A stretch of DNA of 24,630 nt from a virus, in IMG/VR virus record IMGVR_UViG_3300028192_000012, positions 1-24,630 of that record. One strand, written 5' to 3'. The notes beneath the pieces are model-generated. The model did not search any database and was not told the DNA's origin. It worked only from the letters and a program-made list of their open reading frames with translations. Position 1 is the first letter of the stretch, and the number at the start of each line of letters is the position of its first letter. A program made the translations under genes and the position numbers. This document shows positions 1,307 through 24,042 of the stretch, piece by piece.

Positions 1307-1314
1307 TATTTATA
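1307..1314 (-). promoter_or_regulatory. T4-type late promoter element for the neck operon
   Basis: The minus strand reads TATAAATA, an exact match to the T4 late consensus, with 8 bases between its last A and the ATG at 1298. It lies back to back with a second perfect element on the plus strand at 1329-1336. By the T4 rule the start site would be about 3 bases before the ATG. Confidence 0.8.
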
Positions 1315-1328
1315 GTTTCCTAAATGTC

Positions 1329-1336
1329 TATAAATA
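1329..1336 (+). promoter_or_regulatory. T4-type late promoter element for gp13
   Basis: This is a perfect TATAAATA, 5 bases before the ATG at 1342. It would sit inside the coding sequence if translation began at the upstream in-frame ATG at 1324, so it argues for 1342 as the start. The predicted transcript start coincides with the A of that ATG. Confidence 0.8.
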
Positions 1337-1341
1337 TGAGT

Positions 1342-2103
1342 ATGTCAGAACTACAAACAGGTCAACAAGAAGTATTTGAATACGTTAAATCAAACCTCGG
1401 CGAAGGTATGATTGATGTTGAATTAGACCCAAAACACTATCAAACTGCATTAGAAAGAGCAATTAACAGATATAGACAAAGATCTTCAAATGCAGTAGAA
1501 GAATCGTATGCTTTTTTAACACTAAAGAAAAATCAAAACAAATATATTTTGCCAGATGAAGTAATTAATGTTAGAAAACTATTTCGTAGAACAGTTGGTT
1601 CTCGTACAGAAGGCGGAGAAGGTGGAACACTTTTTGAACCATTTAATCTTGCATACACTAACACATATTTGTTAAGAGCAGGTGCAACAGGTGGACTTGC
1701 AACATATTTCGCTTTTGCATCTTACCAAGAATTAGTTGGAAAATTGTTTGGATCTTTTATACAATTTCACTTTGATGTAGCAACTAAAACATTAACTATT
1801 ACACAAAGACCACGTGCAGACGATGAAACTGTTTTAATGCACACCGATAATTATAGACCTGATATAACACTATTCAAAGATGTTTATTCAAAACCATGGG
1901 TTAGAGATTACACACTAGCAATATGCAAAGTAATGTTAGGTGAAGCAAGATCCAAATTTGGACAAATTGCTGGTCCACAAGGTGGAACACAATTAAATGG
2001 TGGAGACCTTAAAACAGAAGGTAATGCAGAAATGGAACGTCTTGACTTAGAAATTAACAATTTCTCAGAAGGTGGAACACCTCATAGTTTTGTTATAGGT
2101 TAA
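1342..2103 (+). CDS. gp13: gp13 neck (head-tail connector) protein
   Basis: 253 residues from the ATG at 1342 (MSELQTGQQEVF). The C-terminal half carries the gp13 signature: MLGEARSKFGQIAGPQGG followed by LNGGDLKTEGNAE, then a short acidic helix and a C-terminal FVIG. T4 gp13 (309 residues) has an equivalent LRDKYASIPGP...LNG segment. The protein would form the ring at the top of the neck between portal and tail. Earlier in-frame ATGs at 1324 and 1336 exist, but 1324 lies upstream of the perfect late promoter and 1336 overlaps its last base, so they would not be on the late transcript. It is divergent from the gp14-like and gp15-like genes, so the neck module is split between strands. The product assignment is strong; the start choice is an inference from the promoter. 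Confidence 0.8.
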   Translation: MSELQTGQQEVFEYVKSNLGEGMIDVELDPKHYQTALERAINRYRQRSSNAVEESYAFLTLKKNQNKYILPDEVINVRKLFRRTVGSRTEGGEGGTLFEPFNLAYTNTYLLRAGATGGLATYFAFASYQELVGKLFGSFIQFHFDVATKTLTITQRPRADDETVLMHTDNYRPDITLFKDVYSKPWVRDYTLAICKVMLGEARSKFGQIAGPQGGTQLNGGDLKTEGNAEMERLDLEINNFSEGGTPHSFVIG

Positions 2104-2119
2104 TTCTTTCACAACTTAT

Positions 2120-2127
2120 TTTAAATA
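2120..2127 (+). promoter_or_regulatory. T4-type late promoter element (TTTAAATA)
   Basis: TTTAAATA lies 8 bases before the ATG at 2136. The sequence between ends GCACT, the same five bases that precede the ATG at 7572. No Shine-Dalgarno sequence is present. Confidence 0.65.
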
Positions 2128-2135
2128 ATAGCACT

Positions 2136-2336
2136 ATGCCAAAAGTAAAAGTACAGATTACATCTGATAAACGTTATCGAAATTATAAAGATTTATCTTA
2201 TAACGAACTAAACGACTTGGTAAAAAGTTTAGAATCTGATTCTAAACGAGCCAAACAAAATCCAATATTACGTGAACAAGTTCTTGGTGCTGTTTCCGAA
2301 GCAAAAACAGAGATTGCAAAACGCATTATAAAATAG
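2136..2336 (+). CDS. small basic hypothetical protein
   Basis: 66 residues, rich in Lys and Arg, beginning MPKVKVQITSDKRY and then mostly helix-forming sequence with no Cys, Trp or recognisable motif. Reality as a gene is supported by its own late-promoter element, tight packing between gp13 and the dNMP kinase, and no competing frame. I do not recognise the family. Its charge and size would fit a small virion-associated or DNA-binding protein, but nothing in the sequence proves either. Confidence 0.65.
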   Translation: MPKVKVQITSDKRYRNYKDLSYNELNDLVKSLESDSKRAKQNPILREQVLGAVSEAKTEIAKRIIK

Positions 2337-2348
2337 TATAATCAATTA

Positions 2349-2945
2349 ATGTTAATAGGATTAGTAGGACCAATTGGGTCTGGCAAAGATACCGTTGCGA
2401 ATAGATTGGTAACAAAACATGGCTATAAAAGAGATTCATTTGCTGATCCATTAAAAGATGCAGTAAGCAAAATATTCAATTGGGATCGGAAATTACTTGA
2501 AGGCAATACTAAAATAAGTCGTGAATGGCGAGAAACAGCCGATGAATTTTGGAGTAAAAAATTTAACAAAGAAATAACACCACGTTGGGTATTACAATAT
2601 TTTGGTACTGAAGTTATGCGTGGACAAATGCATGATGCAATATGGGTTGATTCATTAATTGCACGATATAAAGGTGAAAAAACTGTTGTATCTGATACAC
2701 GATTTCAAAACGAAATAAAAAATATCAAAGCACACGGTGGTATAATTGTACTTGTAAAAAGAGGACCAATTTCAACTAGAGAAGAAATGCAAAAGCAAGG
2801 CATACATCAATCTGAATGGGACTGGGTTGGGTCTAATTTTGATTATACTATTGAAAATACTGGCACTTTAGAAGAATTAAATGCTGAAATTGATACAACT
2901 ATACATCAACTTCCAAATCACCAATTTTCCAACGAAGATGCTTAA
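2349..2945 (+). CDS. gp1: deoxynucleoside monophosphate kinase, T4 gp1 type
   Basis: 198 residues. Phosphorylates dNMPs to dNDPs in the cytoplasm for phage DNA synthesis. The P-loop is GPIGSGKDT (residues 7-15), followed by a DSFADPLKDAV segment and later WVLQYFGTEVMR and VVSDTRFQNE, all typical of the phage dNMP kinase family; T4 gp1 is 241 residues, so this is a compact form. It starts 12 bases after the preceding stop with no obvious Shine-Dalgarno sequence and no clear late element, so it is probably read through from the 2136 gene. Its last 47 bases overlap the 3' end of the convergent HNH-type gene. Finding a nucleotide-metabolism gene among neck and tail genes is unusual relative to T4. 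Confidence 0.85.
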   Translation: MLIGLVGPIGSGKDTVANRLVTKHGYKRDSFADPLKDAVSKIFNWDRKLLEGNTKISREWRETADEFWSKKFNKEITPRWVLQYFGTEVMRGQMHDAIWVDSLIARYKGEKTVVSDTRFQNEIKNIKAHGGIIVLVKRGPISTREEMQKQGIHQSEWDWVGSNFDYTIENTGTLEELNAEIDTTIHQLPNHQFSNEDA

Positions 2946-3258
2946 CACTTACTAATCTTTGACAATTTGCACATACAGTTTTTAAATTAATTGTATTAAC
3001 ATTATTCTTATTACCATCTACAAAAAACACATCAAGTTGTAACGGTTCTTTTGCTTTAAATCCGCACAATTCACATTTATTTTTCTTTCTATAACCTGAA
3101 CGTTGTAATGGTGTTATTCCACCTATTTTAAGTTTTTTTCTTTTCCGAATACAGGTATCACAAAGTCGTCTCCAATAAATTTTTGTACCTTTACGATAAC
3201 CATATGCTCGTGGTTTAGCCTTACACTGTATACATAGTGGTCTGGTGGCTATATTCAT
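2899..3258 (-). CDS. HNH-type zinc protein with lost catalytic histidines
   Basis: 119 residues with four CxxC pairs (9/12, 33/36, 62/65, 96/99). The second half follows the HNH nuclease pattern: CELCGF, then LDVFFVDGNKNN (75-86), then NLKTVCANCQ (91-100). In active HNH enzymes the middle motif reads like VHHIDGN and the last knuckle ends in His. Here the histidine positions are Phe78/Phe79 and Gln100, so metal-dependent cleavage is unlikely, while the zinc frame and DGN are kept. I recall similar short proteins in many T4-like marine phages, which argues for a conserved non-nuclease role such as nucleic-acid binding. A late element (CGTAAATA) lies 5 bases from the ATG. The 3' end overlaps the dNMP kinase tail to tail by 47 bases. 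Confidence 0.75.
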   Translation of the reverse strand: MNIATRPLCIQCKAKPRAYGYRKGTKIYWRRLCDTCIRKRKKLKIGGITPLQRSGYRKKNKCELCGFKAKEPLQLDVFFVDGNKNNVNTINLKTVCANCQRLVSVKHLRWKIGDLEVDV

Positions 3259-3263
3259 AACTG

Positions 3264-3271
3264 TATTTACG
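3264..3271 (-). promoter_or_regulatory. T4-type late promoter element for the HNH-type gene
   Basis: The minus strand reads CGTAAATA, ending 5 bases before the ATG at 3258; the six 3' bases match the late consensus. It is divergent from the gp18 promoter about 60 bases away. Confidence 0.6.
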
Positions 3272-3273
3272 TC

Positions 3274-3285
3274 GCCTATATAGGC
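3274..3285. repeat. 12-base perfect palindrome in the divergent promoter region
   Basis: GCCTATATAGGC is a perfect 12-base palindrome between the HNH-type and gp18 promoters. It is one of the few G+C-flanked symmetric sites in an AT-rich gap and could be a protein-binding site. It may also be chance. Confidence 0.4.
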
Positions 3286-3326
3286 ACCAATTTTACATTT
3301 ATTTTGTCGTTAAATCCGGAACAACC

Positions 3327-3334
3327 GCTAAATA
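3327..3334 (+). promoter_or_regulatory. T4-type late promoter element for gp18 (GCTAAATA)
   Basis: GCTAAATA matches the CTAAATA form of the late element that I recall from marine T4-like phages. Unlike most others in this window it is far (57 bases) from the ATG, giving a leader of roughly 50 bases. That leader carries a Shine-Dalgarno sequence, AAGGAG at 3375-3380. Confidence 0.65.
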
Positions 3335-3374
3335 GTATTAATATATTAAAAGATATAATTTTAATGTTAAATCG

Positions 3375-3380
3375 AAGGAG
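3375..3380 (+). promoter_or_regulatory. Shine-Dalgarno sequence for gp18
   Basis: AAGGAG lies 11 bases before the gp18 ATG at 3392. It stands out because most late genes here have no such site. Confidence 0.75.
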
Positions 3381-3391
3381 TTAAAAATAAT

Positions 3392-6300
3392 ATGGCAACA
3401 CTAACTAGTCCAGGAGTAGAAGTTTCAGTCATAGATGAGAGTTTTTACGTACCAGCAGACGCAGGTACTACACCATTATTTGTTGTAGCAACAGCACAAG
3501 ATAAAACACAAGGGTCAGGAACAGGCATAGCGGCAGGTACAACATCTGCAAATGCAGGTAACGCCTATTTAATTACTTCACAACGTGAATTAATGGAAAC
3601 ATTTGGAGAACCAAAATTCTATACTGATGCATCAGGAAATTCATTACATGGTTACGAATTAAACGAATACGGATTACAAGCGGCATATTCATTTTTAGGA
3701 ATTGCCAATAGAGCATACGTTTTAAGAACAAACATTGATCTATCAAATTTGTTAGGCAGTGCATCAGCACCAACAGCCAATCCAACAGATGGAACTTATT
3801 GGTTTGATCTTGCATCATCTGATATTGGACTATTTGAATGGTCATCAACTAACCAAAAATTTACAACAGTAACTCCAACATTACTAACAAGCCTTACAGA
3901 TCTAGTAGGAGATGTTTCTACTGGTGCACCAAAATCGCACGTAGGATCAACAGGCAATTATGCAATTAATACAACACACAATTCAAACAAGATTTACTAT
4001 AAAAATGATGCAGGTACTTGGGTACAAGTAGGAGCAACAGGATGGCATACTTCACACGCAACAATTACTTCAACTATAAGTAACGGTTCAGTTACATCGG
4101 GTCATTCAATTAAACTTAACACAACAACTGTTGCCACAAATGCAACTACATTTGCTAACGTGGCATCACAAATTAATGCGGCATCGATTACAGGAGTAAC
4201 AGCGGCAGTTGATTCAACAACTGGATATTTAAAAATTTATTCAGATGGAACATCTGCAGGGAATGGTTCTGTAGTTGACGGCAAAATTGTATTAGCCAAC
4301 AACTCAGGTACATTATTAACAGATATTGGCTTAACAGCAGGCACATATGCTTCGCCATTCTTATTACAATCGGCACACACTTCAAGACCTGAATGGAAAA
4401 CAGGAGACACAACACCAAGACCAAACGGATCTGTTTGGTTTAAAACAACATCTCCGAATTCGGGAACAGATTTATCAGTTAAACTTTACAGTTCATCTAC
4501 TACAAGTTTTGCAAGTGTAAGTGCTCCAATGTATGCAACAGGGCATTCAGCAGTATACAATTTAGATACTGCTACAGGTGGAGCGGCAATAACAGTTGGT
4601 TCATTATATGGACAGTACAACACTACAGAAGAAGCAGGATTAGATAGTTTACCAAACGTTGGTGACTTTACATTATTTAGATATGAAGGTGGTGCAACCA
4701 CAATATCATCTAAAACAGTATATCCAACAGGATTACAAGGTAAATTTAAAATTCAGGAAACAGTAAAAAGTTCAGCATCATTAATATCAGCAGTTGAAAT
4801 TACCGTTGCAAACCTTGATGGTTCAACAGTTGCAGACGCAGAAGATTTTTGTGCGGCAGTTAATAATAAAACAGACTTAACAAATATAACTGCATCAGTA
4901 ATTACATCAGGTGGATATAAAGGTGCCATTTCAATGACACACACATTAGGTGGTGAATTTAGAATGGTTGACTCAGAAGGAAGTACTACTCTTGCAACAG
5001 CAGGATTTAGTATAGCAACTGCTCATGCATATGGATCATATACAGCAAACTCAACAACACTTATTGATAACTTATATGATGCACCAGCAGGCGAAACACT
5101 TGATTCATCTGCCAATAATGCAATAATTGCCTCTAACTGGAAAAGATTATCTTATACGGCTTCAACTAGTTCACCAACTAACGAAGCATCAAATGGAACA
5201 TTATGGTACAATACAAATTTAGAAGCAGACATATTGGCTCACAATGGAACAACTTGGCAAGGCTACGCAAATGTTTATGGATCAACAGATCCAAATGGTC
5301 CACAATTTTCAGCAACTACTCCAACTAAACAATCAGATGGAACAGCACTTGTAGATGAAGATTTATGGATTGATACATCAGACTTAGAAAACTTTCCAAA
5401 ATTATACAGATATAATACGTCTGCAACAATTACTAATTCAACGTCAGGTCTACCAGTAACAACAACTGGAGCGGCTTGGGAATTAGTTGACAATACTGAT
5501 CAAACAACAGAAAATGGTGTTTTATTTGCTGATGCTAGATGGCATATAGCGGCAGAAAGACTAGATTCTACAACAAGCGGTGGAGCAGGTTCAGGAAGTA
5601 CAATAAAAAATTTATTAAGTGATAACTTCTTAGATCCAGATGCACCAGATCCAGTATTATATCCAAAATCAATGTTACTTTGGAATACTAGACGTTCAGG
5701 ATATAATATTAAAGAATATAATAACACTTACGTATCAACTACTGCATATCCAGGTTCAGGATCAACAGGACTAGGTAATATAAGATATAACAACGAATCG
5801 GTTGCATCTTACTATCCTGATAGATGGGTTTCTAAGTCATCTACTAACTCAGATGGTTCTGGAACTTTTGGAAGAAAAGCACAAAGAAAAGTTATTACAG
5901 CACAATTTAAATCAGATATAGGAACAAATCAAGCAATTAGAGAAGATCAAAGAGGCTTTAATGTAATGGCTTGTCCAGGTTATCCTGAAGCAATTGCAGA
6001 TCTGTTAAATCTAAATGCTGATAGAAACTATACAAGTTTTGTATGTGGTGATTCACCATTAAGATTAAAAGCAACAGCAACTGAAATATCTAATTGGTCA
6101 AACAATACAGCAGGAGCATCAGATAACGGCGAAGACGGACTTGTTTCAAGTTCAGAATATTTAGGTGTCTTTTATCCTGCAGGAAAAACTACTGATAACA
6201 GTGGAAATTCAATTATTGTTCCACCTTCACATATGATGATGAGAGTATTAGCAAATAACGACAATTTGGCATATCCATGGTTTGCACCAGCAGGTACAAG

Positions 6301-6823
6301 ACGTGGTATAGTTGATAATGCGACAGCAGTTGGATACATTAGTGCAAGTTCGGGAGAATTCCAAACTATCTCAATTACTGAAGGTATGAGAGATGCTATG
6401 CATACTGTAAAAATTAATCCATTAACATTCTTCTCAGGTTCAGGAATTATGAACTTTGGTAACCTTACAAAGGTATCATCAAGTTATACATCTGCACTAG
6501 ACAGAATCAATGTTTCAAGACTAGCAGTCTACTTAAGAACACAATTAGAAAGTGTTGCTAAACCGTTTATTTTTGAACCAAATGATGAATTAACAAGAAA
6601 CGAAATTAAACAAGCAATCGAATCATTTTTACTAGAACTTGCAGGTCAAAGAGCAGTATATGACTTCTTAGTAGTTTGTGATGACACAAACAACACACCA
6701 ACAAGAATAGATAGAAATGAATTGTATGTTGATATAGCAATTGAACCAGTTAAATCAGTTGAATTTATTTACATACCATTAAGAATTAAAAACACAGGAG
6801 AAATTGCAAAATTAGGGAACTAA
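3392..6823 (+). CDS. gp18: gp18 contractile tail sheath protein, greatly enlarged
   Basis: 1143 residues against 659 in T4. The conserved sheath core is split. The N-terminal part (1-122) opens with TLTSPGVEVSVIDES and includes FGIANRAYVLRTN-like sequence at 101-114. The C-terminal part (about 830-1143) carries GFNVMACPGYPEA (855-867), an APAGTRRGIV segment (966-973), a YLRTQL...FIFEPND segment and a final strand ending IYIPLRI. Residues about 123-760 are an insertion of Thr/Ser/Gly/Asn-rich beta modules. Several follow a pattern DG(T/S)xW(F/Y)xT...LxxxxxxxW (near 133, 346, 602, 658). One stretch (223-321) looks like the flagellin hook 'IN' motif. Sheath subunits contract around the tube at infection, and the insertion would lie on the outer surface of the tail. 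A strong leader and Shine-Dalgarno sequence fit a very abundant protein. Confidence 0.9.
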   Translation: MATLTSPGVEVSVIDESFYVPADAGTTPLFVVATAQDKTQGSGTGIAAGTTSANAGNAYLITSQRELMETFGEPKFYTDASGNSLHGYELNEYGLQAAYSFLGIANRAYVLRTNIDLSNLLGSASAPTANPTDGTYWFDLASSDIGLFEWSSTNQKFTTVTPTLLTSLTDLVGDVSTGAPKSHVGSTGNYAINTTHNSNKIYYKNDAGTWVQVGATGWHTSHATITSTISNGSVTSGHSIKLNTTTVATNATTFANVASQINAASITGVTAAVDSTTGYLKIYSDGTSAGNGSVVDGKIVLANNSGTLLTDIGLTAGTYASPFLLQSAHTSRPEWKTGDTTPRPNGSVWFKTTSPNSGTDLSVKLYSSSTTSFASVSAPMYATGHSAVYNLDTATGGAAITVGSLYGQYNTTEEAGLDSLPNVGDFTLFRYEGGATTISSKTVYPTGLQGKFKIQETVKSSASLISAVEITVANLDGSTVADAEDFCAAVNNKTDLTNITASVITSGGYKGAISMTHTLGGEFRMVDSEGSTTLATAGFSIATAHAYGSYTANSTTLIDNLYDAPAGETLDSSANNAIIASNWKRLSYTASTSSPTNEASNGTLWYNTNLEADILAHNGTTWQGYANVYGSTDPNGPQFSATTPTKQSDGTALVDEDLWIDTSDLENFPKLYRYNTSATITNSTSGLPVTTTGAAWELVDNTDQTTENGVLFADARWHIAAERLDSTTSGGAGSGSTIKNLLSDNFLDPDAPDPVLYPKSMLLWNTRRSGYNIKEYNNTYVSTTAYPGSGSTGLGNIRYNNESVASYYPDRWVSKSSTNSDGSGTFGRKAQRKVITAQFKSDIGTNQAIREDQRGFNVMACPGYPEAIADLLNLNADRNYTSFVCGDSPLRLKATATEISNWSNNTAGASDNGEDGLVSSSEYLGVFYPAGKTTDNSGNSIIVPPSHMMMRVLANNDNLAYPWFAPAGTRRGIVDNATAVGYISASSGEFQTISITEGMRDAMHTVKINPLTFFSGSGIMNFGNLTKVSSSYTSALDRINVSRLAVYLRTQLESVAKPFIFEPNDELTRNEIKQAIESFLLELAGQRAVYDFLVVCDDTNNTPTRIDRNELYVDIAIEPVKSVEFIYIPLRIKNTGEIAKLGN

Positions 6824-6829
6824 TTTTTG

Positions 6830-6837
6830 GATAAATA
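6830..6837 (+). promoter_or_regulatory. late-promoter-like element fused to a Shine-Dalgarno sequence before gp19
   Basis: GATAAATA is followed at once by AGGAG (sharing the A at 6837, to 6841), with ATG at 6848. If the element drives transcription by the T4 rule, the start would be about 5 bases before the ATG and the AGGAG would be upstream of it. If gp19 is read through from gp18, the AGGAG works as a normal ribosome site. The two uses exclude each other on a single transcript. Confidence 0.55.
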
Positions 6838-6847
6838 GGAGAAACAT

Positions 6848-7474
6848 ATGTCAATATCAACATTATCAAAATTTACAGTACCTTTAGCAAACGACCAAAG
6901 TGCAGTATCACAAGGTTTGTTGATGCCAAAACTACAATATCGTTTTAGAGTAGTTCTTGAAAACTTTGGTATATCTACGCCTAGATCAGAATTAACAAAA
7001 CAAGTTGTAGATGTAACAAGACCTGATTTATCGTTTGATCAAATCACGTTAGATGTTTATAACTCACGTGTGTATATGGCAGGTAAACATACTTGGAATC
7101 CAATTACATTGAACTTGAGAGATGACGTGAACAACGCAGTTTCTAAACTTGTTGGAGAACAAATACAGAAACAATTTGACTTCTTTGAACAAGCAAGTGC
7201 AGTATCTGGTATTGATTACAAATTTACTGCTAGAACAGAAATATTAGACGGTGGACAAGGATCATCTACACCAAACGTATTAGAAACATTTGAATTATAT
7301 GGTGCATATATTGAATCAGTCAATTATAACACATTAGCATATAATACATCAGATCCAGCAACAGTAACATTAAGTATTAGATACGACAATGCTATTCAAA
7401 CACCGCAAGGTACAGGAATTGGTACTGCCGTAGCAAGAACAGTTGGTACATTAGCAACTGGTGGTGGACAATAA
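6848..7474 (+). CDS. gp19: gp19 tail tube protein
   Basis: 208 residues against 163 in T4. Forms the stacked hexamer rings of the inner tail tube. The tube-fold pattern is visible: YRFRVVLENF (31-40), VVDVTRPDL (53-61), the HTWNPITLNLRDD segment (81-93), and a final YNTLAYNTSDPATVTLSIRYDNA segment with the alternating hydrophobic strand typical of the C-terminus. It follows gp18 by 24 bases, the standard 18-19 order of T4-like phages. A rho-independent terminator follows the gene. The C-terminal Gly/Thr-rich tail is longer than in T4. Confidence 0.9.
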   Translation: MSISTLSKFTVPLANDQSAVSQGLLMPKLQYRFRVVLENFGISTPRSELTKQVVDVTRPDLSFDQITLDVYNSRVYMAGKHTWNPITLNLRDDVNNAVSKLVGEQIQKQFDFFEQASAVSGIDYKFTARTEILDGGQGSSTPNVLETFELYGAYIESVNYNTLAYNTSDPATVTLSIRYDNAIQTPQGTGIGTAVARTVGTLATGGGQ

Positions 7475-7521
7475 GAATTAACTTTGCAATTATAATAAAA
7501 TTTTAGACCTCCAATCTAAGT

Positions 7522-7550
7522 AAAAAAGCGTCATTATAGGCGCTTTTTTT
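7522..7550 (+). terminator. rho-independent terminator after gp19
   Basis: The stem AAAAAAGCG (7522-7530) pairs with CGCTTTTTT (7541-7549) around a 10-base loop, followed by one more T. It is a perfect 9-base stem with a T run, 47 bases after the gp19 stop. It would end the gp18-gp19 transcript and leaves the next gene dependent on its own promoter at 7556-7563. Confidence 0.8.
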
Positions 7551-7555
7551 ATGGC

Positions 7556-7563
7556 AATAAATA
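7556..7563 (+). promoter_or_regulatory. T4-type late promoter element (AATAAATA)
   Basis: AATAAATA ends 8 bases before the ATG at 7572 and starts 6 bases after the terminator T run. It would be inside the coding sequence if the ATG at 7551 were used, which supports 7572 as the true start. Confidence 0.7.
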
Positions 7564-7571
7564 CAAGCACT

Positions 7572-8981
7572 ATGCCTAGCATTAATGATTTTTTAAAAGG
7601 ATTTACAGAAGGCCTTCCGGGCATGAAAGACTATCGTCATGCCTCAAGATTATATTTTGACGACAACTTTAAACTAGCACCAAAACACAAATATCTTTTC
7701 CATGTAGTATTTGACCTCGATGAAACCGTTCTTGGAGCAACAAGACCATTTACTAATAACGAAAGATTAGAATTGAATATGCTAGTTAAGACAATTGATT
7801 TGCCACAGTACAATATGAACGTTGATGAAAAAATTCAATACAATAAAAAAATGTATTTGGCAACAAAGATTAGTTATAATCCAATTAATATAGCATTTCA
7901 TGATGATAATGCTGATACTGTAAATGCTTTTTGGAAAACATATTATGAATATAACATAGCAGATTCAATAACTACGGTACCTTCAATGCGTACCATGAAC
8001 AAAGATACACAATATGATAGTGGCGACCAATTAAACTATACTCAATTTGGTATGGATACTGCTACAAATAGAAAAAAACCGTTCTTAAGAGGTATCGATA
8101 TTTTTGTATTACATAAACAAAGATTTACATCATTTCATTTAATAAATCCTGTTATTGGATCATTTGCACATGACCAATTAGATCAAACTGATGGTTTAGG
8201 AACTCTGCAAAACACAATGCAAATATTTTATGAAACAGTATTATACGATACAGGAACTATTAAAGGTGGTGGAGTACCTGGGTTTGGAACAATACACTAC
8301 GATCACGAACCTTCACCACTATCAGTATTAGGTGGAGGTACTAATTCAATCTTTGGACCAGGCGGAATAATTGATGGAATTGGTTCTGTTATTGGTGACG
8401 CAAAAAGGGGAGAAGTCGGACTTGGTACAATACTTAAAGGAATTCACACATATAATAAAGCAAAAAAAATGAAGAATCCTAAAGATCAAGCAAAAGAAGA
8501 ATTAAGAGGTATTGTAAAAGACGAAATTAAAAAAGTTGGAGAATCAGCAGGTACTATTGCAAATCCTGTTGGAGATTATTCTGTAGGAAGTGCCGTTGTA
8601 ACAACTGCTTTAGCAGGAGCCACAATTGCCGCATCAAAAGGTTTAATTGATAATGATAAAAAAGGTAATACAGTAATAAATTCTTCTACTATTGATACAA
8701 GTATCCACTTGACTGCTAACGAATGTTTTCTTCTTGTTAATAACAACGAAAATGTAAAACAAGAAATTGCGGCAAGTTTATATTATAAAGACATTGGGAG
8801 TAGAAAAGGATTAACAACTGCTGAAAGTAATATTGAATATAATTCTGCATCAGATTCAATTAAAAATGTTTATAATACTAAAGTAATCACAAATATTAGA
8901 AAACTAGTAACTGAAGGTTACATAAAAATAAACAAAAATACATACGACGTAACAACATCAATCGAAGGACAAAATTTATAA
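7572..8981 (+). CDS. second tail-tube-like structural protein (gp19/gp54 family type)
   Basis: 469 residues from the ATG at 7572 (MPSINDFLKGF). The N-terminal 250 residues look like a tube-fold protein related to gp19: KYLFHVVFDL, then VKTIDLPQYNMNV (72-84), then KISYNPINIAFHDDN (99-113), which lines up with the WNPITLNLRDD segment of gp19. A Gly/Pro-rich hinge follows (about 235-290), then a Lys-rich helical and mixed C-terminal region of about 180 residues with no recognised motif. In T4 the tube starts on gp54, a gp19 relative, so this protein may be a tube-initiating or tube-capping subunit; a baseplate hub-associated role is another option. An in-frame ATG at 7551 exists but directly abuts the terminator and precedes the promoter element. 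The stop overlaps the next start (TAATG). Confidence 0.65.
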   Translation: MPSINDFLKGFTEGLPGMKDYRHASRLYFDDNFKLAPKHKYLFHVVFDLDETVLGATRPFTNNERLELNMLVKTIDLPQYNMNVDEKIQYNKKMYLATKISYNPINIAFHDDNADTVNAFWKTYYEYNIADSITTVPSMRTMNKDTQYDSGDQLNYTQFGMDTATNRKKPFLRGIDIFVLHKQRFTSFHLINPVIGSFAHDQLDQTDGLGTLQNTMQIFYETVLYDTGTIKGGGVPGFGTIHYDHEPSPLSVLGGGTNSIFGPGGIIDGIGSVIGDAKRGEVGLGTILKGIHTYNKAKKMKNPKDQAKEELRGIVKDEIKKVGESAGTIANPVGDYSVGSAVVTTALAGATIAASKGLIDNDKKGNTVINSSTIDTSIHLTANECFLLVNNNENVKQEIAASLYYKDIGSRKGLTTAESNIEYNSASDSIKNVYNTKVITNIRKLVTEGYIKINKNTYDVTTSIEGQNL

Positions 8982-9358: not shown

Positions 9359-9361
9359 ATT

Positions 9362-9796
9362 ATGAAATTTGCCAGAGGGAGATTTCATCTTAAAAATCAA
9401 GAAAAATATGTAGGCACTAAAACTCCTACTTACAGGTCTGGTTGGGAACACGCATTTATGAGATTATGCGATGAACATCCTAACGTATATAAATGGGCAA
9501 GTGAATCAATTAAAATACCTTACAGACATCCACTTACAGGCAAATATACAATCTACGTACCGGATTTTTTCGTTGTTTATATTGACAAAGAGGGGCGTAA
9601 ACACGCCGAGTTGGTTGAAATTAAGCCAAAGGCACAGACAACAATGGAAGATGCAGGACGTAGTCATTCTAAACAAAGACAAGTTGTTATTAATACTGCA
9701 AAGTGGGAGGCCGCAAGTGCTTATGCAAAACAAAATAGAATTAAATTTAGAGTAGTATCAGAAGAGCAATTATTCCATAACGGTAAACGTAAGTAA
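9362..9796 (+). CDS. gp4: gp4-type head completion protein (TnsA-like nuclease fold)
   Basis: 144 residues against about 150 for T4 gp4. Needed in T4 to finish the DNA-filled head before tail joining. Landmarks include YRSGWEHAFMRLCDEHP (24-40), IKIPYRHPLTGKYTIY, the YVPDFFVVY strand (65-73), LVEIKPK (84-90) and NTAKWEAA (111-118). Glu29, Asp68, Glu86 and Lys88 together make an E...D...ExK set like that of TnsA-type and restriction-like nucleases, so a nuclease activity on DNA ends is plausible. A TGGAG Shine-Dalgarno sequence at 9351-9355, overlapping the end of the preceding gene, serves the ATG. The assignment rests on motif memory, with good length agreement. Confidence 0.8.
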   Translation: MKFARGRFHLKNQEKYVGTKTPTYRSGWEHAFMRLCDEHPNVYKWASESIKIPYRHPLTGKYTIYVPDFFVVYIDKEGRKHAELVEIKPKAQTTMEDAGRSHSKQRQVVINTAKWEAASAYAKQNRIKFRVVSEEQLFHNGKRK

Positions 9797-9799
9797 ATA
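9792..9799 (+). promoter_or_regulatory. T4-type late promoter element for gp16 (AGTAAATA)
   Basis: AGTAAATA overlaps the stop codon of the gp4-type gene and ends 5 bases before the ATG at 9805. Confidence 0.65.
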
Positions 9800-9804
9800 A
9801 AACG

Positions 9805-10353: not shown

Positions 10354-10356
10354 ATA
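10349..10356 (+). promoter_or_regulatory. T4-type late promoter element (ACTAAATA)
   Basis: ACTAAATA contains the stop codon of gp16 (10351-10353) and ends 7 bases before the ATG at 10364. Confidence 0.65.
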
Positions 10357-10363
10357 TTGTATT

Positions 10364-10972: not shown

Positions 10973-10976
10973 TATT

Positions 10977-12389
10977 ATGGAAATGATTGACGTTTTAAAT
11001 AAACTACACGAACTTGAAAATAAAAGTCCTGAAGTTACAAAAGCAATCACTAGTGTTGAAAAAACAAATATAACACAAGAAGCAAAAGGAAAAGATCACG
11101 ATAAAGACGGTGACGTAGATTCTAAAGACTGGAAAAAATCTAAAGATATTGCTATTAAAAAAGCAATAAAAAAAGAATCAATAAGTTACAAAGATTTTTT
11201 AGCATCTAAAGGCGTAGACATTTACAAACTTACAGGTGATGAACACGTAAAATATTCTACAGCATATAGAGACAATAGAGATGATCAAGAAGCAAGTGAT
11301 TCTCAAAGTCAAACAGATGCACCACAACAAGAAGGTAGAGTTAAAGATGCAGTACTTGGTGCTGAAGAAAGAGTTGGGGATTACATTGACGATGATGGCA
11401 ACTTAAAAATGCCTAAAAATAAAGTTTTATATGATTTAAAAGCACAAAGTAAACAAACAACAGATGCGATGGCAAGTTATGAACTTAATATTGCAATAGA
11501 TTTAGTTCAAGATAAATTTGATGATAACGGTCAAGCAAGACCTGATGAGGACGATGTTCCACATGATGTAGATACACAAATGAATATGGACGCACCAACA
11601 GAAGCAGAACCTCAAACAACTGAACCAAAAGTTGAAGAAGAAATGACACCTATGGGAACTAGAATGTTTTTTGATATGGGTGCTAAATTAGATATTAATT
11701 TTGATATGGATCAAAAAGGAATGATGGCTGGTGTTTTAAACAGATTAGATCAAGATGCGTTAATGAAATCAGTAGACGAGTACAAAGCACAGGAATTAGA
11801 TCCGGATCAAGCAGAGTCAGAACAGGTAAATACAAATACAATGAAAACAGAAGACAAAAAACCACTTAAAGAAGACAAAAAACCAGTTAAAGAAGCAATA
11901 ACAATGAGTGCTGATTCACCAGAAGAAGCAGGTATGTTAATGCAAATTATGAAACTTGCAGGTGTACAACAAGTAACACCTGATATGATTGGTGGAGAAG
12001 AACCAGCGGCAGACAACGATGCAGATCACGATCACGATGGCGATGGCGAACAAGACCATGCTCCAGAAGAATGTCCAGTATGTGGCAACGACGGTGGAGA
12101 TATGAGAAATATGATGAGTAAAGTTGACGACAGAGAAGAACCAGCAGAAGAAACTTATTCTAATACACCGGACGAAAAAACTCAAGATATTGATGATTTA
12201 GTTAATGTTCACTCTGGTGGTTTAAATAGACAAAAACAACAAGTAAGAAAAGAATATCCAGGTGATAATCCACTTGCAGTCAAAGAAGATCCAACAGAAG
12301 AAGAATTATCAAATTCATTAAGAAATCAATACGAAGGCTTTAAAAAAAGTTATTCAGAAGCAATATCTAAAACAAAAGAATCCAAGTAA
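10977..12389 (+). CDS. acidic virion-type protein with an EF-hand-like calcium loop
   Basis: 470 residues from the ATG at 10977. An in-frame ATG at 10929 lies inside the preceding gene; 10977, 4 bases after that gene's stop, is the better start. Residues 40-51 (DHDKDGDVDSKD) fit the 12-residue EF-hand/dockerin loop DxDxDGxVxxxD. The middle is Asp/Glu/Gln-rich and likely disordered apart from a TPMGTRMFFDMGAKLD segment. Near 325 there is MKLAGV, a motif repeated as TKLAGV in the 15298 protein. At 347-375 a second Asp/His-rich stretch (DHDHDGDGEQDH) is followed by a CPVC pair. The KEDKKP block is repeated twice near 298-304. I do not recognise the family. Acidity, low complexity and location near packaging genes suggest an internal head or scaffold-associated protein, which is an inference. 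Confidence 0.65.
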   Translation: MEMIDVLNKLHELENKSPEVTKAITSVEKTNITQEAKGKDHDKDGDVDSKDWKKSKDIAIKKAIKKESISYKDFLASKGVDIYKLTGDEHVKYSTAYRDNRDDQEASDSQSQTDAPQQEGRVKDAVLGAEERVGDYIDDDGNLKMPKNKVLYDLKAQSKQTTDAMASYELNIAIDLVQDKFDDNGQARPDEDDVPHDVDTQMNMDAPTEAEPQTTEPKVEEEMTPMGTRMFFDMGAKLDINFDMDQKGMMAGVLNRLDQDALMKSVDEYKAQELDPDQAESEQVNTNTMKTEDKKPLKEDKKPVKEAITMSADSPEEAGMLMQIMKLAGVQQVTPDMIGGEEPAADNDADHDHDGDGEQDHAPEECPVCGNDGGDMRNMMSKVDDREEPAEETYSNTPDEKTQDIDDLVNVHSGGLNRQKQQVRKEYPGDNPLAVKEDPTEEELSNSLRNQYEGFKKSYSEAISKTKESK

Positions 12390-12403
12390 TTTCATTTATA
12401 ATA

Positions 12404-12411
12404 TTTAAATA
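12404..12411 (+). promoter_or_regulatory. T4-type late promoter element for the sulfotransferase gene
   Basis: TTTAAATA ends 5 bases before the ATG at 12417, with no Shine-Dalgarno sequence. The cargo gene thus carries the same late signal as the structural genes around it. Confidence 0.65.
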
Positions 12412-12416
12412 AGCAT

Positions 12417-13184
12417 ATGAGTAATAAAAGACTTATGGCTGTTAGATCATTTGCATTAGTTAATGACTCTATGTGGATCGGCATTCCAAAAACTGCCACT
12501 ACTAGTCTACAACAAATCTTCCACAGATTTCCAAAAACATATTATGAAGATAATTCAGAATTTTTAAAAATTAGAAAGTCACCAGACTTATCACCTAAAA
12601 AAATCTGGTGCATATGGAGAGACCCATGGCAACGTTGGTTATCTGCCGTCATGCAAGACTACGAATTAAAATTTGATCTAGGAAGAGTGACGCCATCTGG
12701 AAACAAGAATCATCGGCAAATGGATTATCAAGAAATAGTTAGTCTGGCAAAGGACCTACAATTAAAATGGAAATTTAATAGTGCAAATTTAAGAAATAAA
12801 ATGTTTCAGCATAGCAGTCTTTATGTTGCCAGGTATATTACCTTATTATGGAAGTTAGCAAATGAACGTCATAATTGTCCTATATTAGAAATTTATCCTA
12901 TATCAAAAATTAATAATGCAATAAAAACTCATTTCAATATAAATTTTAACTCTCCTAATCTAAATAAATCTCATCAAATAAATCTTGATCGTTTAGATAT
13001 GATTTTACAAGAAAAGAAATTTTATAACAAATGGAAAGAACAATTTGAAGAGGATATAAATCTCAATGAAATTATCTCACAAAATATAAAAAGATTTAAT
13101 AAGACAGAATGGAATGAAAAAGTTTTGTTTAAATATGGATTACATCTAGACCGTTATTTTAAAAAAATATCATCGGATTTTTAA
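12417..13184 (+). CDS. PAPS-dependent sulfotransferase-like protein
   Basis: 255 residues. Would move sulfate from PAPS to a sugar, lipid or protein hydroxyl in the cytoplasm. Two cofactor motifs are clear: IPKTATTSLQ (23-32), the 5'-phosphosulfate loop with Lys25 and the Thr/Ser run, and WRDPWQRWLSAVMQDY (67-82), the 3'-phosphate motif RDPxxRxxS with Arg68, Arg73 and Ser76. The Gly of the usual PKTGTTSL is Ala27 here. A strand WIGIPKT precedes the loop as in the family. The rest is helical and Asn/Lys/Ile-rich and not diagnostic. It is a cargo gene standing between virion genes and gp17, with its own late element and an inverted repeat after it, as if inserted as a unit. The substrate is unknown; host surface polysaccharide or a virion glycan are candidates. 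Confidence 0.75.
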   Translation: MSNKRLMAVRSFALVNDSMWIGIPKTATTSLQQIFHRFPKTYYEDNSEFLKIRKSPDLSPKKIWCIWRDPWQRWLSAVMQDYELKFDLGRVTPSGNKNHRQMDYQEIVSLAKDLQLKWKFNSANLRNKMFQHSSLYVARYITLLWKLANERHNCPILEIYPISKINNAIKTHFNINFNSPNLNKSHQINLDRLDMILQEKKFYNKWKEQFEEDINLNEIISQNIKRFNKTEWNEKVLFKYGLHLDRYFKKISSDF

Positions 13185-13190
13185 AACAAC

Positions 13191-13231
13191 AGGCTAGATA
13201 TAGAAGATTAAAACTAACCACAAACTAGCCT
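13191..13231. repeat. inverted repeat between the sulfotransferase gene and gp17
   Basis: AGGCTAG (13191-13197) and CTAGCCT (13225-13231) form a perfect 7-base inverted repeat with a 27-base AT-rich spacer. The right arm abuts the gp17 late promoter (13230-13237). There is no T run, so it is a poor terminator; the long spacer also weakens a hairpin. Confidence 0.45.
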
Positions 13232-13237
13232 TAAATA
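13230..13237 (+). promoter_or_regulatory. T4-type late promoter element for gp17 (CTTAAATA)
   Basis: CTTAAATA ends 7 bases before the ATG at 13245. The bases just before the ATG (ACACT) nearly repeat those at 2136 and 7572 (GCACT). Confidence 0.65.
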
Positions 13238-13244
13238 CAACACT

Positions 13245-14840
13245 ATGGCATATGTATCATTAGATTCAGAGCAAATTAAACGTGCTCACAAGAAGCACAA
13301 ATATACAAAAGATCAAGTATTAAAACTTGAAAAGTGTATGCATCCAAAAACCGGACCTTTGTATTTTATGGAAACATTCATGAGAATACAACATCCAACT
13401 AAAGGTGAGATGGCATTTCATCCTTATGATTTCCAAAAAAGATTAATTGAATCTTACAATTCGCACAGATTTAGTATATCAATGCTACCACGACAAACAG
13501 GTAAAACAACCTGTGCGGCAGGATACATTATTTGGTATGCTATGTTTCATCCAGATTCATCTATATTAATTGCGGCACACAAATACGCAGGTGCATCTGA
13601 CATTATGTCACGTGTAAGATTTGCATATGAGATGTTACCTGAATGGATTAAAGCAGGAGTAACACAATACAATAGAAATTCTATAGAATTTGATAATGGT
13701 TCAAAAATAATGGCAACTACTACAACTGAAAATACTGGACGGGGTTTATCCTTAACAATGATTTATTGTGATGAGTTTGCTTTCGTGCAACCACCCGATA
13801 AAGCCAAAGAGTTTTGGACTTCACTATCTCCAACACTATCAACAGGAGGTAAATGTATGATTACATCAACTCCAAATAGTGATGAAGATCAATTTGCATT
13901 AATTTGGAAAGAAGCAAACAAAAGATTTGACGACTATGGCAACGATAAAATAGTAGGAACAAATGGTTTCTATGCCATGAAGGCACACTGGTCAGAACAC
14001 CCTGACAGAGATGAAGAATGGGCAGAAACTGAAAAAGCAAGAATCGGTGACGAAAGATTTAGACGGGAACACGAATGTGAATTTATAATCTTTGACGAAA
14101 CATTAATTAACTCTATAACATTAGTAGAATTAGAAAGTACTTTGCCAACTTTAACTACAGGACAAGTTAGATGGTGGAAAACGCCACAGCCTGGAATGAC
14201 TTATATGGTATCATTAGATCCGGCGATGGGAACTGGTGGTGACTATGCCGCTATCCAAGTATTTGAACTGCCAACATTTGAACAAATTGGTGAATGGCGT
14301 CATAACGAAACACCAATGAATCAACAAGTTAGAATATTACAAGGTATTACAAAACATATACACGAAGCAATCATGGAAAAAGATAGTACTAACAATCCTC
14401 AAATATTTTATTCAATGGAAAATAATACAATAGGTGAAGCGGCATTAATGCGTGTAATGGATATTGGTGAAGAAAATATTCATGGTATGTTCTTATCAGA
14501 ACCTATTAGAAAAGGACATAGAAGAAAATTTAGAAGAGGGTTCAATACTACTGCTAAATTTAAAATAGATGCTTGTACTAAATTTAAAGAACTTATAGAA
14601 GGTGGAAAAATGGTAGTAAACAGTAATCTTCTTATAACTGAATTAAAAGATTTTGTTGCAACAGGAATGAGTTACAAAGCCAAGCCTGGACAAAATGACG
14701 ATTTAGTTAGTGCTTGTTTACTAATGACACGTATGATGAAAGTATTAGCAGATTTTGATCCTAAAATATTTGAAAAATGGACGAATAGAGACAGGGAATA
14801 CACTATACCAATGCCTATCTTTGCTAACTTGGGTGTATAA
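13245..14840 (+). CDS. gp17: gp17 terminase large subunit
   Basis: 531 residues against 610 in T4. The ATP-driven motor that pumps DNA into the prohead and cuts it. ATPase domain: the adenine-binding Gln region FHPYDFQKRL (58-67), a Walker A LPRQTGKTT (81-89, Lys87), a Walker B MIYCDEF (172-178, Asp176, Glu177) and a coupling motif TSTP (207-210). Nuclease domain: SLDPAMGTGGDYAA (323-336, Asp325), SMENN (390-394, Glu392) and QNDDLVSA (483-490, Asp485/486), matching the catalytic acid triad of T4 gp17. All key residues are present, so it should be active. It is preceded by a late promoter and followed one base after its stop by the next gene. Confidence 0.95.
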   Translation: MAYVSLDSEQIKRAHKKHKYTKDQVLKLEKCMHPKTGPLYFMETFMRIQHPTKGEMAFHPYDFQKRLIESYNSHRFSISMLPRQTGKTTCAAGYIIWYAMFHPDSSILIAAHKYAGASDIMSRVRFAYEMLPEWIKAGVTQYNRNSIEFDNGSKIMATTTTENTGRGLSLTMIYCDEFAFVQPPDKAKEFWTSLSPTLSTGGKCMITSTPNSDEDQFALIWKEANKRFDDYGNDKIVGTNGFYAMKAHWSEHPDRDEEWAETEKARIGDERFRREHECEFIIFDETLINSITLVELESTLPTLTTGQVRWWKTPQPGMTYMVSLDPAMGTGGDYAAIQVFELPTFEQIGEWRHNETPMNQQVRILQGITKHIHEAIMEKDSTNNPQIFYSMENNTIGEAALMRVMDIGEENIHGMFLSEPIRKGHRRKFRRGFNTTAKFKIDACTKFKELIEGGKMVVNSNLLITELKDFVATGMSYKAKPGQNDDLVSACLLMTRMMKVLADFDPKIFEKWTNRDREYTIPMPIFANLGV

Positions 14841-14841
14841 T

Positions 14842-15288
14842 ATGATTTTACAAAAAGCATTAGATAATTTTCTAGCAAAAGAAACTACTAAAAACAAAGG
14901 CGATGTTCCATGGTTGGTTTGGCTTATGGAAAATCCAAAATCACCATTACATTTACATGGCGCTTCTGCTTTAAATGATCATGATTACGTCCATGTTATT
15001 CTTGATAAAGGACAAGCCAACGATGATGAAGCATTTGTTATTGGATTTACAATGGGCAATGATGATAGAACTAAAAATTGGGAAGTAAAATTATTTAAAT
15101 TTATTTCCAGTAAGTTGTATCCTGAAGAAGCACGTTTTACTAAAGAGCAACTTAAAATTTTTGATAAGGGTTTTAAGTATGGCCAGTCAAAACTACCTTT
15201 ATATCAAAGAATCGGTGAATTTGATTGGGATACAATGGATAAAAATACTCCATTAAATGACATCAAAAGAAAATTTAACGTACAATAA
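14842..15288 (+). CDS. conserved protein with a Coq4-like HDxxH...E metal motif
   Basis: 148 residues from the ATG at 14842. An in-frame ATG at 14755 would overlap gp17 by 86 bases and is less likely. The core reads PWLVWLMENPKSPL, then NDHDYVHVILDKG, then DDEAFVIGFTMGND. The spacing His-Asp-x-x-His, eleven residues, Glu is the motif of the ubiquinone-pathway protein Coq4. I also recall related short proteins, of unknown function, in cyanobacteria and marine T4-like phages. Conserved GFTMGND and a LYPEEARF segment near the C-terminus define the family. It is placed directly after gp17 and is probably co-transcribed with it. Whether it binds metal or a lipid/quinone is an inference from the motif only. 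Confidence 0.65.
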   Translation: MILQKALDNFLAKETTKNKGDVPWLVWLMENPKSPLHLHGASALNDHDYVHVILDKGQANDDEAFVIGFTMGNDDRTKNWEVKLFKFISSKLYPEEARFTKEQLKIFDKGFKYGQSKLPLYQRIGEFDWDTMDKNTPLNDIKRKFNVQ

Positions 15289-15291
15289 ATA
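15284..15291 (+). promoter_or_regulatory. T4-type late promoter element (AATAAATA)
   Basis: AATAAATA includes the stop codon of the preceding gene (15286-15288) and ends 6 bases before the ATG at 15298. Confidence 0.7.
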
Positions 15292-15297
15292 CAGTAT

Positions 15298-17823
15298 ATG
15301 ACAACTAATAATCTATCATCAGACGTTTTTAACAAAATAAGATCCAAATTTGGTGACATTCAATTAGGCGATTCTGAAGGGAACGTTACTGCTGATCCAA
15401 GCGGAGCACAATTTTACGATTTTGAGTATACTGAAGATTCAGACACATTTGGCAGAATGAGCATTTCTCTTGCAGATGGTGAAACAATGAAAGTTTTTTA
15501 TAACAGACAGTTAACTGATAAAATTGATGAAACTAGTAAACAAGAATTTTTTAATTTTTTAAAAGAATTAAAAGATCTTGCAGTACAACATCAATTAGGG
15601 TTTGATGTTAGAGATATTACTAAATCAAACCTATCAACACAAGATTTTAAGAATCTTGCTGATACAAACAAAACGGTAAATACTGATGAAATGTCAGAAG
15701 AATTAAACAGAATTACAAAATTAGCAGGTGTTGATGTTAAAGAAAGTTTAACAGGCACAGCAAAAAGATCATACGAAAACTTAGATAAAACAAGATTAGT
15801 AATTAGACACTCAGGCAAAGTAGATGAAGAGGTTCCTGGCTCTAGATCAAGACACATTGAATCATTATACATTGAAAACGAAGATGGTGAAAGATTCAAA
15901 TATCCAATAACTCATTTAGCAGGTGCAAGAGCAATGACAAGACACGTTGCTAACGGTGGAAGACCGCACGATGAATTTGGACAACACATTGTACAAACAT
16001 CAGAAAATATTGCACAATTAAATTCATTTTCTAGATACGTTTCACACAAAGATCAATTAAATGACAATGCTGGTGATATAATTGAACAAACAAAATTAAA
16101 ATTAGAAAATTTAAGAACGTACATGAAAAACTTAAACAAACAATCACACTATGATGAAACTTTTAAAAACTTTAAAACAACAGAAGACCAAGTTTTAGAT
16201 GACGAAACAAAAGATTCTTATAGAGAAAAATTTACAATGAAGCATCTTGACGACAGAGTTGAAAATGCATTACCACTTATACACCGTATTATGAGTGAAT
16301 TTAAACCTGGTGATGATGATAAAGATGCAAAAGTAGAACCACCAGTAGACCATGGAGCAATTGTACAAGGGTGGTTAACTAACCCTGACAAAAGATTAGT
16401 ATTAAGAAAAGACGAAACAGCAGATAAAATGTTATCAGTAACAAAATTTAATAATAAAAACACAATGCTTGGTAGTATCTTATCTGATATTGCCTCAAGA
16501 ATGTTGACTACAGAACCTGAAGATGACAGAGTGGCAAACTTTGCTTCTAGAATTGCAGATGATTTAGAAAAAGAAGGCGAAGCATTTTTTAATCCAGATA
16601 AAGATTATGTAAAAAATAAAAAAATTGCTATTCAATTAGCAAGAAGATATATTGATGATTATAAAAAAATGCAAAACGATCCTGCTTATGCTAGTGAAGT
16701 AAGAAAAGATCCAAACGAAGTTATTCCTAGAAAAGATAGACACGGTAAAACAAAAGAAGATCCATTTGAATCATGGGCAGACCGAGTTACTGAAGGAACA
16801 TGGTCACTACCTGATGATCCAAAAAATTATAACGAACTTAAAGGAATTATGTCACAACATTTCGATGTTGGTACTGATGCTGTTAATGCCACTACATGGT
16901 TAAGCAAATTTGGATTTGGTGATGATAGTTTATATGATACATTAGGATCATTATATGATAAAGATGGTGAAAAAGCAGACGCTAGACCAGTTATAAAAGA
17001 TTATGTAACAACAATGCTAGTACCTACAGGTCATTATGACGACTCACTAACTCCTGAAATGAAAGCAGGATTAATGACAGCAGTTTCAGTATATAAAGAT
17101 GAACTAGCAACTGCAGAATCACAACCTGATGCAGGTTCTGAAAGAGCGGATGCGGCACAAGGTATGTGGGCATCAAGTAAAGAAATACAATCAAAATTTA
17201 AAACTTGGCAAGACTTTATGAACTCGGAAGAATTTGATGATTATTTACAAGACGATACTAACCAATTAGAAGGTTTAACTTTTGAAGACATCAAACCTTA
17301 TGTATCAATGTACAAAGGTGATGATGGCAAAGTAGTACACGACGTATTAGATAAAGGTGGTAAGTCTGCATACAAAACAAATAATGCCAAAGATGCAATG
17401 AATTATTTGTCAAAAAACTTTGGCAAACTTCGAGGACAAGCACCTAAGGTTAAAGATTTTATAAAATCTGAAGATACCAAAGATGCCACAAAAGGCAAAT
17501 ATTCAGATAAGGAAATTAAACAAGCAAAAGGTATTGCTTTTGATAAACGATACAAAGGTGGCAACTACACTGGAGCACATAATACTATTAACAAACTTAA
17601 AAAAGGATTATCAGATCACCCAGATGTTGCTGATGCATTAAAAAGAGCAAACGAAAATATTACAGAACCATTAAAAGAATCAAGAACTAAAATAGTAGAA
17701 GCAATTAAAAATAAAGCAGATACAGGATTTAATATCGCTGGAATAGAAGGCGAGGACGACAGAGTAACAGGCGATGCAGGTCTTCAAATTGCTAGACTAA
17801 AATACCTTTCTACATATCAATAA
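15298..17823 (+). CDS. large marine-phage virion-type protein of unknown function
   Basis: 841 residues, very rich in Asp, Lys and Asn, no Trp-rich or membrane segments. Three blocks resemble proteins I remember from marine T4-like phages: SGAQFYDFEYTED with a following acidic strand (35-60) and DVRDITKSNLS (103-113); the block LVIRHSGKVDEE...SRSRHIESLYIEN (167-194) with GARAMTRHVANGG (209-221); and a C-terminal FESWADRVTEGTWSLPDDP block with DATNATTWL-like and GDDSLYDTL sequence (about 498-550). A short MSEELNRITKLAGVDVKES (132-150) shares KLAGV with the 10977 protein. A late element precedes it, so it is expressed with structural genes. Function is unknown; an internal or tail-associated virion protein fits best. 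Long charged linkers suggest much of it is flexible. Confidence 0.65.
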   Translation: MTTNNLSSDVFNKIRSKFGDIQLGDSEGNVTADPSGAQFYDFEYTEDSDTFGRMSISLADGETMKVFYNRQLTDKIDETSKQEFFNFLKELKDLAVQHQLGFDVRDITKSNLSTQDFKNLADTNKTVNTDEMSEELNRITKLAGVDVKESLTGTAKRSYENLDKTRLVIRHSGKVDEEVPGSRSRHIESLYIENEDGERFKYPITHLAGARAMTRHVANGGRPHDEFGQHIVQTSENIAQLNSFSRYVSHKDQLNDNAGDIIEQTKLKLENLRTYMKNLNKQSHYDETFKNFKTTEDQVLDDETKDSYREKFTMKHLDDRVENALPLIHRIMSEFKPGDDDKDAKVEPPVDHGAIVQGWLTNPDKRLVLRKDETADKMLSVTKFNNKNTMLGSILSDIASRMLTTEPEDDRVANFASRIADDLEKEGEAFFNPDKDYVKNKKIAIQLARRYIDDYKKMQNDPAYASEVRKDPNEVIPRKDRHGKTKEDPFESWADRVTEGTWSLPDDPKNYNELKGIMSQHFDVGTDAVNATTWLSKFGFGDDSLYDTLGSLYDKDGEKADARPVIKDYVTTMLVPTGHYDDSLTPEMKAGLMTAVSVYKDELATAESQPDAGSERADAAQGMWASSKEIQSKFKTWQDFMNSEEFDDYLQDDTNQLEGLTFEDIKPYVSMYKGDDGKVVHDVLDKGGKSAYKTNNAKDAMNYLSKNFGKLRGQAPKVKDFIKSEDTKDATKGKYSDKEIKQAKGIAFDKRYKGGNYTGAHNTINKLKKGLSDHPDVADALKRANENITEPLKESRTKIVEAIKNKADTGFNIAGIEGEDDRVTGDAGLQIARLKYLSTYQ

Positions 17824-17853
17824 AAACTAGCATATAAGTTTACCAATTATTCA

Positions 17854-17861
17854 TTTAAATA
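17854..17861 (+). promoter_or_regulatory. T4-type late promoter element (TTTAAATA)
   Basis: TTTAAATA ends 5 bases before the ATG at 17867, with no Shine-Dalgarno sequence. Confidence 0.65.
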
Positions 17862-18216: not shown

Positions 18217-18269
18217 ATGTGTAATGCTTAATATACATTTAGGCAAAAACAAACATAGGCACACAACAC

Positions 18270-18276
18270 AAGGAGG
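18270..18276 (+). promoter_or_regulatory. strong Shine-Dalgarno sequence for gp32
   Basis: AAGGAGG lies 8 bases before the ATG at 18285, the best ribosome site in the window. Confidence 0.85.
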
Positions 18277-18284
18277 CTTACATT

Positions 18285-24041: not shown

Positions 24042-24042
24042 T

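Follow-up and report, generated by a model that had tools for sequence, protein, structure and literature searches.

TAAATA elements at the start codons of late genes in an uncultured marine jumbo-type phage: probable T4-type late promoters predicted to yield leaderless messages

Many late genes of an uncultured marine phage and of hundreds of its relatives carry a TAAATA element immediately before their start codons. We regard these elements as gp55-type late promoters placed at the ATG, whose messages would be leaderless or nearly so and translated without a Shine-Dalgarno (SD) sequence, and give this reading a probability of about 0.84. The T4-type late promoter is known; its placement at the ATG, with the leaderless messages predicted from it, appears to be new. 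In the window, the complete IMG/VR record of 24,630 bases (33% GC) representing a fragment of a phage genome, TAAATA ends 5-8 bases before the ATG at 11 of 23 gene starts.

The source is an uncultured marine jumbo-type phage of the T4 superfamily. Its large terminase has as nearest isolates the jumbo phages PA5oct (53%, over 95% of TerL) and Phosso (47%), and the virion gene order gp13-gp1-gp18-gp19-tube-gp4-gp17 resembles that of PA5oct. Large terminase homology and virion gene order thus point to membership of the PA5oct/Rak2-type jumbo phage superfamily. Megablast of the window against annotated phages gave no match, and no RNA polymerase subunit is found among the family matches of the 24.6-kb window, which is an incomplete genome. 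Relatives were analysed as a W set (80 contigs related to the window by terminase), a P set (contigs closest to PA5oct) and an H set (contigs closest to gp13 of Pelagibacter phage HTVC008M). Elements are called near when TAAATA ends 4-8 bases before the ATG, middle at 9-14 and far at 15-30. SD sequences were scored as GGAG, AGGA, GAGG or AAGG at -20 to -5 of window gene starts. The features of the window are the following.

126 to 1298, minus strand: virion structural protein (phrog_11591; previously labelled gp14-like), predicted 3-nt leader
1307 to 1314, minus strand: element TATAAATA, 8 nt before the ATG at 1298 of the preceding virion gene; divergent pair also in relatives G001, G002 and G003
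1329 to 1336, plus strand: element TATAAATA, 5 nt before ATG 1342 (gp13), back to back with 1307-1314
1342 to 2103, plus strand: gp13-like head-tail adaptor Ad2, predicted leaderless
2120 to 2127, plus strand: element TTTAAATA, 8 nt before ATG 2136 (small ORF); family near in 8/9 nonredundant W cases
3264 to 3271, minus strand: element CGTAAATA, 5 nt before the ATG at 3258 (HNH); near in 18/20 orthologues
3375 to 3391, plus strand: leader of the sheath gene gp18, containing an SD (contrasting class)
6830 to 6847, plus strand: leader of the tube gene gp19, GATAAATAGGAG, containing an SD (contrasting class)
7522 to 7550, plus strand: intrinsic terminator AAAAAAGCGTC...GGCGCTTTTTTT, -12.5 kcal/mol, hairpin and T-run ending 5 bases before the element at 7556-7563
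7556 to 7563, plus strand: element AATAAATA, 8 nt before ATG 7572; near in 26/27 nonredundant orthologues, mode 5
7572 to 8981, plus strand: second tail-tube-like protein, predicted leaderless or with a leader of at most 3 nt; start MP conserved
9792 to 9799, plus strand: element AGTAAATA, 5 nt before ATG 9805 (previously labelled gp16); near in 51/55 orthologues, mode 5; its TAA is the gp4 stop codon
10349 to 10356, plus strand: element ACTAAATA, 7 nt before ATG 10364; near in 34/35 orthologues; its TAA doubles as the stop of the 9805 gene
12404 to 12411, plus strand: element TTTAAATA, 5 nt before ATG 12417 (sulfotransferase-like); near in 3/3 orthologues
13230 to 13237, plus strand: element CTTAAATA, 7 nt before ATG 13245 (gp17, large terminase); near in 61/63 orthologues, mode 7
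15284 to 15291, plus strand: element AATAAATA, 6 nt before ATG 15298 (virion protein), overlapping the stop codon of the preceding gene; near in 40/40 orthologues
17854 to 17861, plus strand: element TTTAAATA, 5 nt before ATG 17867, whose gene has no relatives found in the contig set

Dinucleotide shuffles (5000) yield a mean of 0.31 and a maximum of 4 elements near gene starts, against the 11 observed. Among all 954 ATGs of the window 15 carry a near element, 11 of which are gene starts. The octamer TATAAATA is not enriched window-wide (83 matches with up to 1 mismatch versus 94 expected). The preliminary description had called the elements TATAAATA-like, which fits their conserved TAAATA core and is loose for the two 5' letters, variable in the window's clade. 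All eleven spacings that it listed were reproduced, namely 5 bases (1342, 3258, 9805, 12417 and 17867), 6 (15298), 7 (10364 and 13245) and 8 (1298, 2136 and 7572), and so was the lack of SD tetramers at -20 to -5 of these genes (0/11). It had counted thirteen elements; eleven are near, and the other two are presumably those of gp18 (TAAAAATA) and gp19 (GATAAATAGGAG), both with SD. SD sequences precede gp18, gp19, 8981, gp4, gp32 and 20364 in the window. Scans for consensus promoters and terminators gave a signal not separable from chance, and folding predicts open 5' ends at the starts, a property common to gene starts generally and not decisive.

The spacing is not random in relatives either, since it peaks at 5-8 in the same orthologues of the 80 W-set contigs. 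TAAATA is found at 4-8 in 254 of the 758 nonredundant upstream regions of this set, against one or two at each position as background, and SD sequences accompany 27 of 253 near genes versus 248 of 505 others. The P set has 160 near (SD 0), 12 middle and 137 far elements (SD about 0.65), the H set 30, 9 and 112 (SD 0.8-0.9 for the far ones), and a single 354-kb relative 42, 5 and 64. Two distance classes with few elements at 9-14 are as expected if the element sets the start point of the message, leaving a leader either of 0-3 bases or with room for an SD. For control hexamers chosen without overlap with the motif, HTVC008M shows nothing like the 4-8 peak, and in the contig sets the peak is far lower.

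Near elements precede late genes (gp13, gp17, virion proteins) and none is found before gp32 or uvsX; gp18, gp19, gp32 and uvsX are never near in W orthologues, gp18 is near in 0/79 orthologues of W and P together, and gp19 has an SD in 54/54 W and 39/39 P orthologues. In relative G002 the major capsid and several baseplate-type genes have SD leaders. The preliminary description had taken the late programme as a whole to be leaderless or nearly so; such initiation is the best explanation for the eleven genes, while gp18, gp19 and these G002 genes retain SD leaders. The 10364 orthologue switches mode, being near without SD in W (64/65) and far in 37/52 of the P set, 30 of these 37 with SD, a change that needs about three events on the terminase tree. 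A variant, TAAGTA, lies exactly 5 bases before the gp17 ATG where TAAATA is missing (L140, L149, L153 and other P-set loci).

Upstream of the HNH gene (3264-3300, minus strand) a conserved palindrome, GGTGCCTATATAGGC, directly precedes the element in many orthologues and is perhaps a second control site. The gp32 leader (18250-18290) holds a strongly conserved AGGAGGCTTACATT with an upstream CATAGGCA motif in relatives, a possible regulatory leader. Accessory genes in 12417-13184 and 21658-24471 are sulfotransferase-like (a label of the preliminary description), glycosyltransferase-like and methyltransferase-like (phrog_8156), perhaps serving surface modification; the glycosyltransferase assignment is our own reading, its match phrog_28018 being of unknown function.

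In the numbering of T4 late promoters a spacing of 5 places +1 on the A of the ATG, and with the same geometry a spacing of 8 leaves a 3-base leader. Near and far elements share clade-specific bases (G at -13 in P; T at -13 and A at -12 in H), and TTGACA-like matches upstream of both are about as frequent as in shuffles. With shared flanking bases and no -35 hexamer, near and far elements look like a single promoter class, of gp55 type; a host sigma-70 -35 element is ruled out by the same shuffle-level counts. Homologues of gp55 are encoded in relative contigs G002, G018, G020 and G021, G002 belonging to the close clade; none lies in the 24.6-kb window, too short a fragment to expect one. For gp33 the relatives give two marginal matches (E 7e-4 and 1.5e-3). 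The gp55-like sigma at L090:1024-1953 has an insertion of about 110 residues relative to cyanophage gp55 and adjoins a gp47-like gene.

The layout of the genes bears on where the messages start. The terminator-then-element arrangement of 7522-7563 is found also in the displayed orthologues of the second tube protein, strong GC hairpins often stand directly before the near elements of P-set gp17 and tube genes, and L098 offers an example of a terminator abutting the element, GCCCGCTCCGGCGGGCTTTTTTTTGGATAAATACAAGT-ATG. Terminators lie at most 20 nt upstream of near elements in 31/310 W and 28/197 P cases and in none of the shuffles; the generic scan missed the 7522-7550 hairpin, probably owing to its A/U-rich stem. 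With an intrinsic terminator directly before the element, the 5' end of the message has to fall between that terminator and the ATG. Together with the divergent gp13 and gp14-like genes, whose elements stand back to back, this arrangement makes transcripts of such genes hardly attributable to promoters far upstream.

These observations weigh against the alternative, raised in the preliminary description, that the A/T run acts on read-through transcripts. The element would then be a translation enhancer or standby site on messages started upstream and not a promoter at that place. The elements of 9805, 10364 and 15298 overlap the preceding stop codon, as in a tight operon layout, and for 15298 an SD-like tetramer lies no more than 20 nt before the start codon, though not between element and ATG, in 27/64 W orthologues; at these three genes read-through may add a leadered message. 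As a general account it is unlikely, given the terminators that directly precede many near elements and the divergent pair. This element, flanking bases included, is also found at 15-30 together with an SD, as befits a promoter, and the near peaks survive the removal of elements that are upstream stop codons (213 left in W, 128 in P).

Less probable still is that the late promoters are real and initiation does not proceed as in T4, for instance several bases inside the ORF, with translation from a downstream codon. The spacing is indeed inconstant: 4-8 does not fit one fixed +1, and a spacing of 4 would put that of T4 inside the ATG. However, N-termini are conserved right after the ATG (MAY in gp17, MTK in 9805, MPS in the second tube protein), which argues that the annotated start codons are correct, and the W set uses 295 ATG and 1 GTG. 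Starts 1342 and 7572 are internal to slightly longer ORFs, and relatives begin at these same ATGs. An artefact of composition or gene calling, from TAA stops of packed genes in A/T-rich DNA, is scarcely credible: the motif does contain TAA, GC is 33% and there is no window-wide enrichment, but shuffles and control hexamers fall far short of the near counts, 8 of the 11 window elements do not coincide with a stop codon, a near class is absent from the equally packed T4, PA5oct and Syn9, and the persistence of the peaks without upstream stops rules out a stop-codon origin.

The preferred reading, gp55-type promoters at the ATG, has its closest parallel in the late promoters of T4, which depend on gp55, gp33 and gp45. 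Likenesses are the TAAATA core, the lack of a -35 hexamer, the virion genes downstream and the gp55 homologue of the window's relatives. T4 elements, however, mostly stand 20-30 bases ahead of the ATG (13 of 26 within 60 bases), with an SD leader between, and one is at 4-8, whereas in the window it lies at 5-8 without SD; moreover the two 5' bases, consensus positions -13 and -12, are not conserved in the window's clade. The position of the T4 element assumed in the preliminary description, -13 to -6, agrees with the review of T4 late transcription (PMC2988020). T4-like cyanophages Syn9 and P-SSM4 have a similar element before late genes, spaced 20-30 and without a near class, and the late element of S-PM2 is NATAAATA (PMC2984593). 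The KVP40 and phiM12 stretches were poorly chosen and were left out of the spacing comparison.

HTVC008M has 12 elements exactly 5 bases before ATG (consensus TATAAATAGTA) and encodes gp55; it is the one isolate among those examined with a clear excess of the layout, apparently shared by a lineage apart from that of the window. Most of the contigs nearest to it by gp13 have the leadered type. In Mosig the excess at spacing 5 is less marked. A spacing set by the host alone is unlikely, since HTVC008M and Mosig share host HTCC1062 yet differ in degree. PA5oct, Phosso, Atu_ph07 and Rak2-type jumbo phages have no near class above control, and in jumbo phages BF, 121Q and CBB it is absent above control or only slight. 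The late promoters of phiKZ are alike in standing next to the start point and differ in serving a phage multisubunit RNA polymerase, with no TAAATA at -13 to -6; they are described as TATG with the start at G (PMC4666361), and phage transcripts in the AR9 paper "are often leaderless" (PMC5312081). In our literature searches no T4-like phage turned up for which leaderless late messages are reported, and the papers retrieved do not call HTVC008M leaderless.

We propose that a phage gp55-like sigma recognises the TAAATA element with T4 geometry and that transcription would begin either at the A of the ATG or no more than about 3 bases ahead of it. The message, with a predicted leader of 0-3 bases, would be translated without SD by host ribosomes starting on the 5'-terminal AUG. 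Sheath, tube and major capsid, products probably needed in bulk, keep SD leaders, a generalisation suggested by a few genes, and leaderless initiation would be one of two late modes. A broader scheme, which we advance tentatively and hold somewhat less probable than not, is that one gp55 promoter class serves two translation modes: late genes would switch in the course of evolution by moving the element between two distances, with the zone between nearly forbidden, leaderless messages serving proteins made in modest amounts and SD leaders the bulk ones, and ribosomes would perhaps be tuned in infection. Ribosomal protein bS21 is phage-encoded in 3 of the 11 records searched (HTVC008M 91237-91392; G018:C1:232992-233144; G019:C1:111767-111931) and could bear on non-SD initiation.

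If the main reading is true, leaderless translation in abundant uncultured phages is fed by T4-type late transcription, one of the most thoroughly studied programmes of any phage. These genomes would then offer hundreds of natural promoters whose start is predicted to lie at the AUG, and one could test directly why they avoid leaders of about 4-9 bases. Gene-start annotation in these genomes would change too, as start callers expect an SD.
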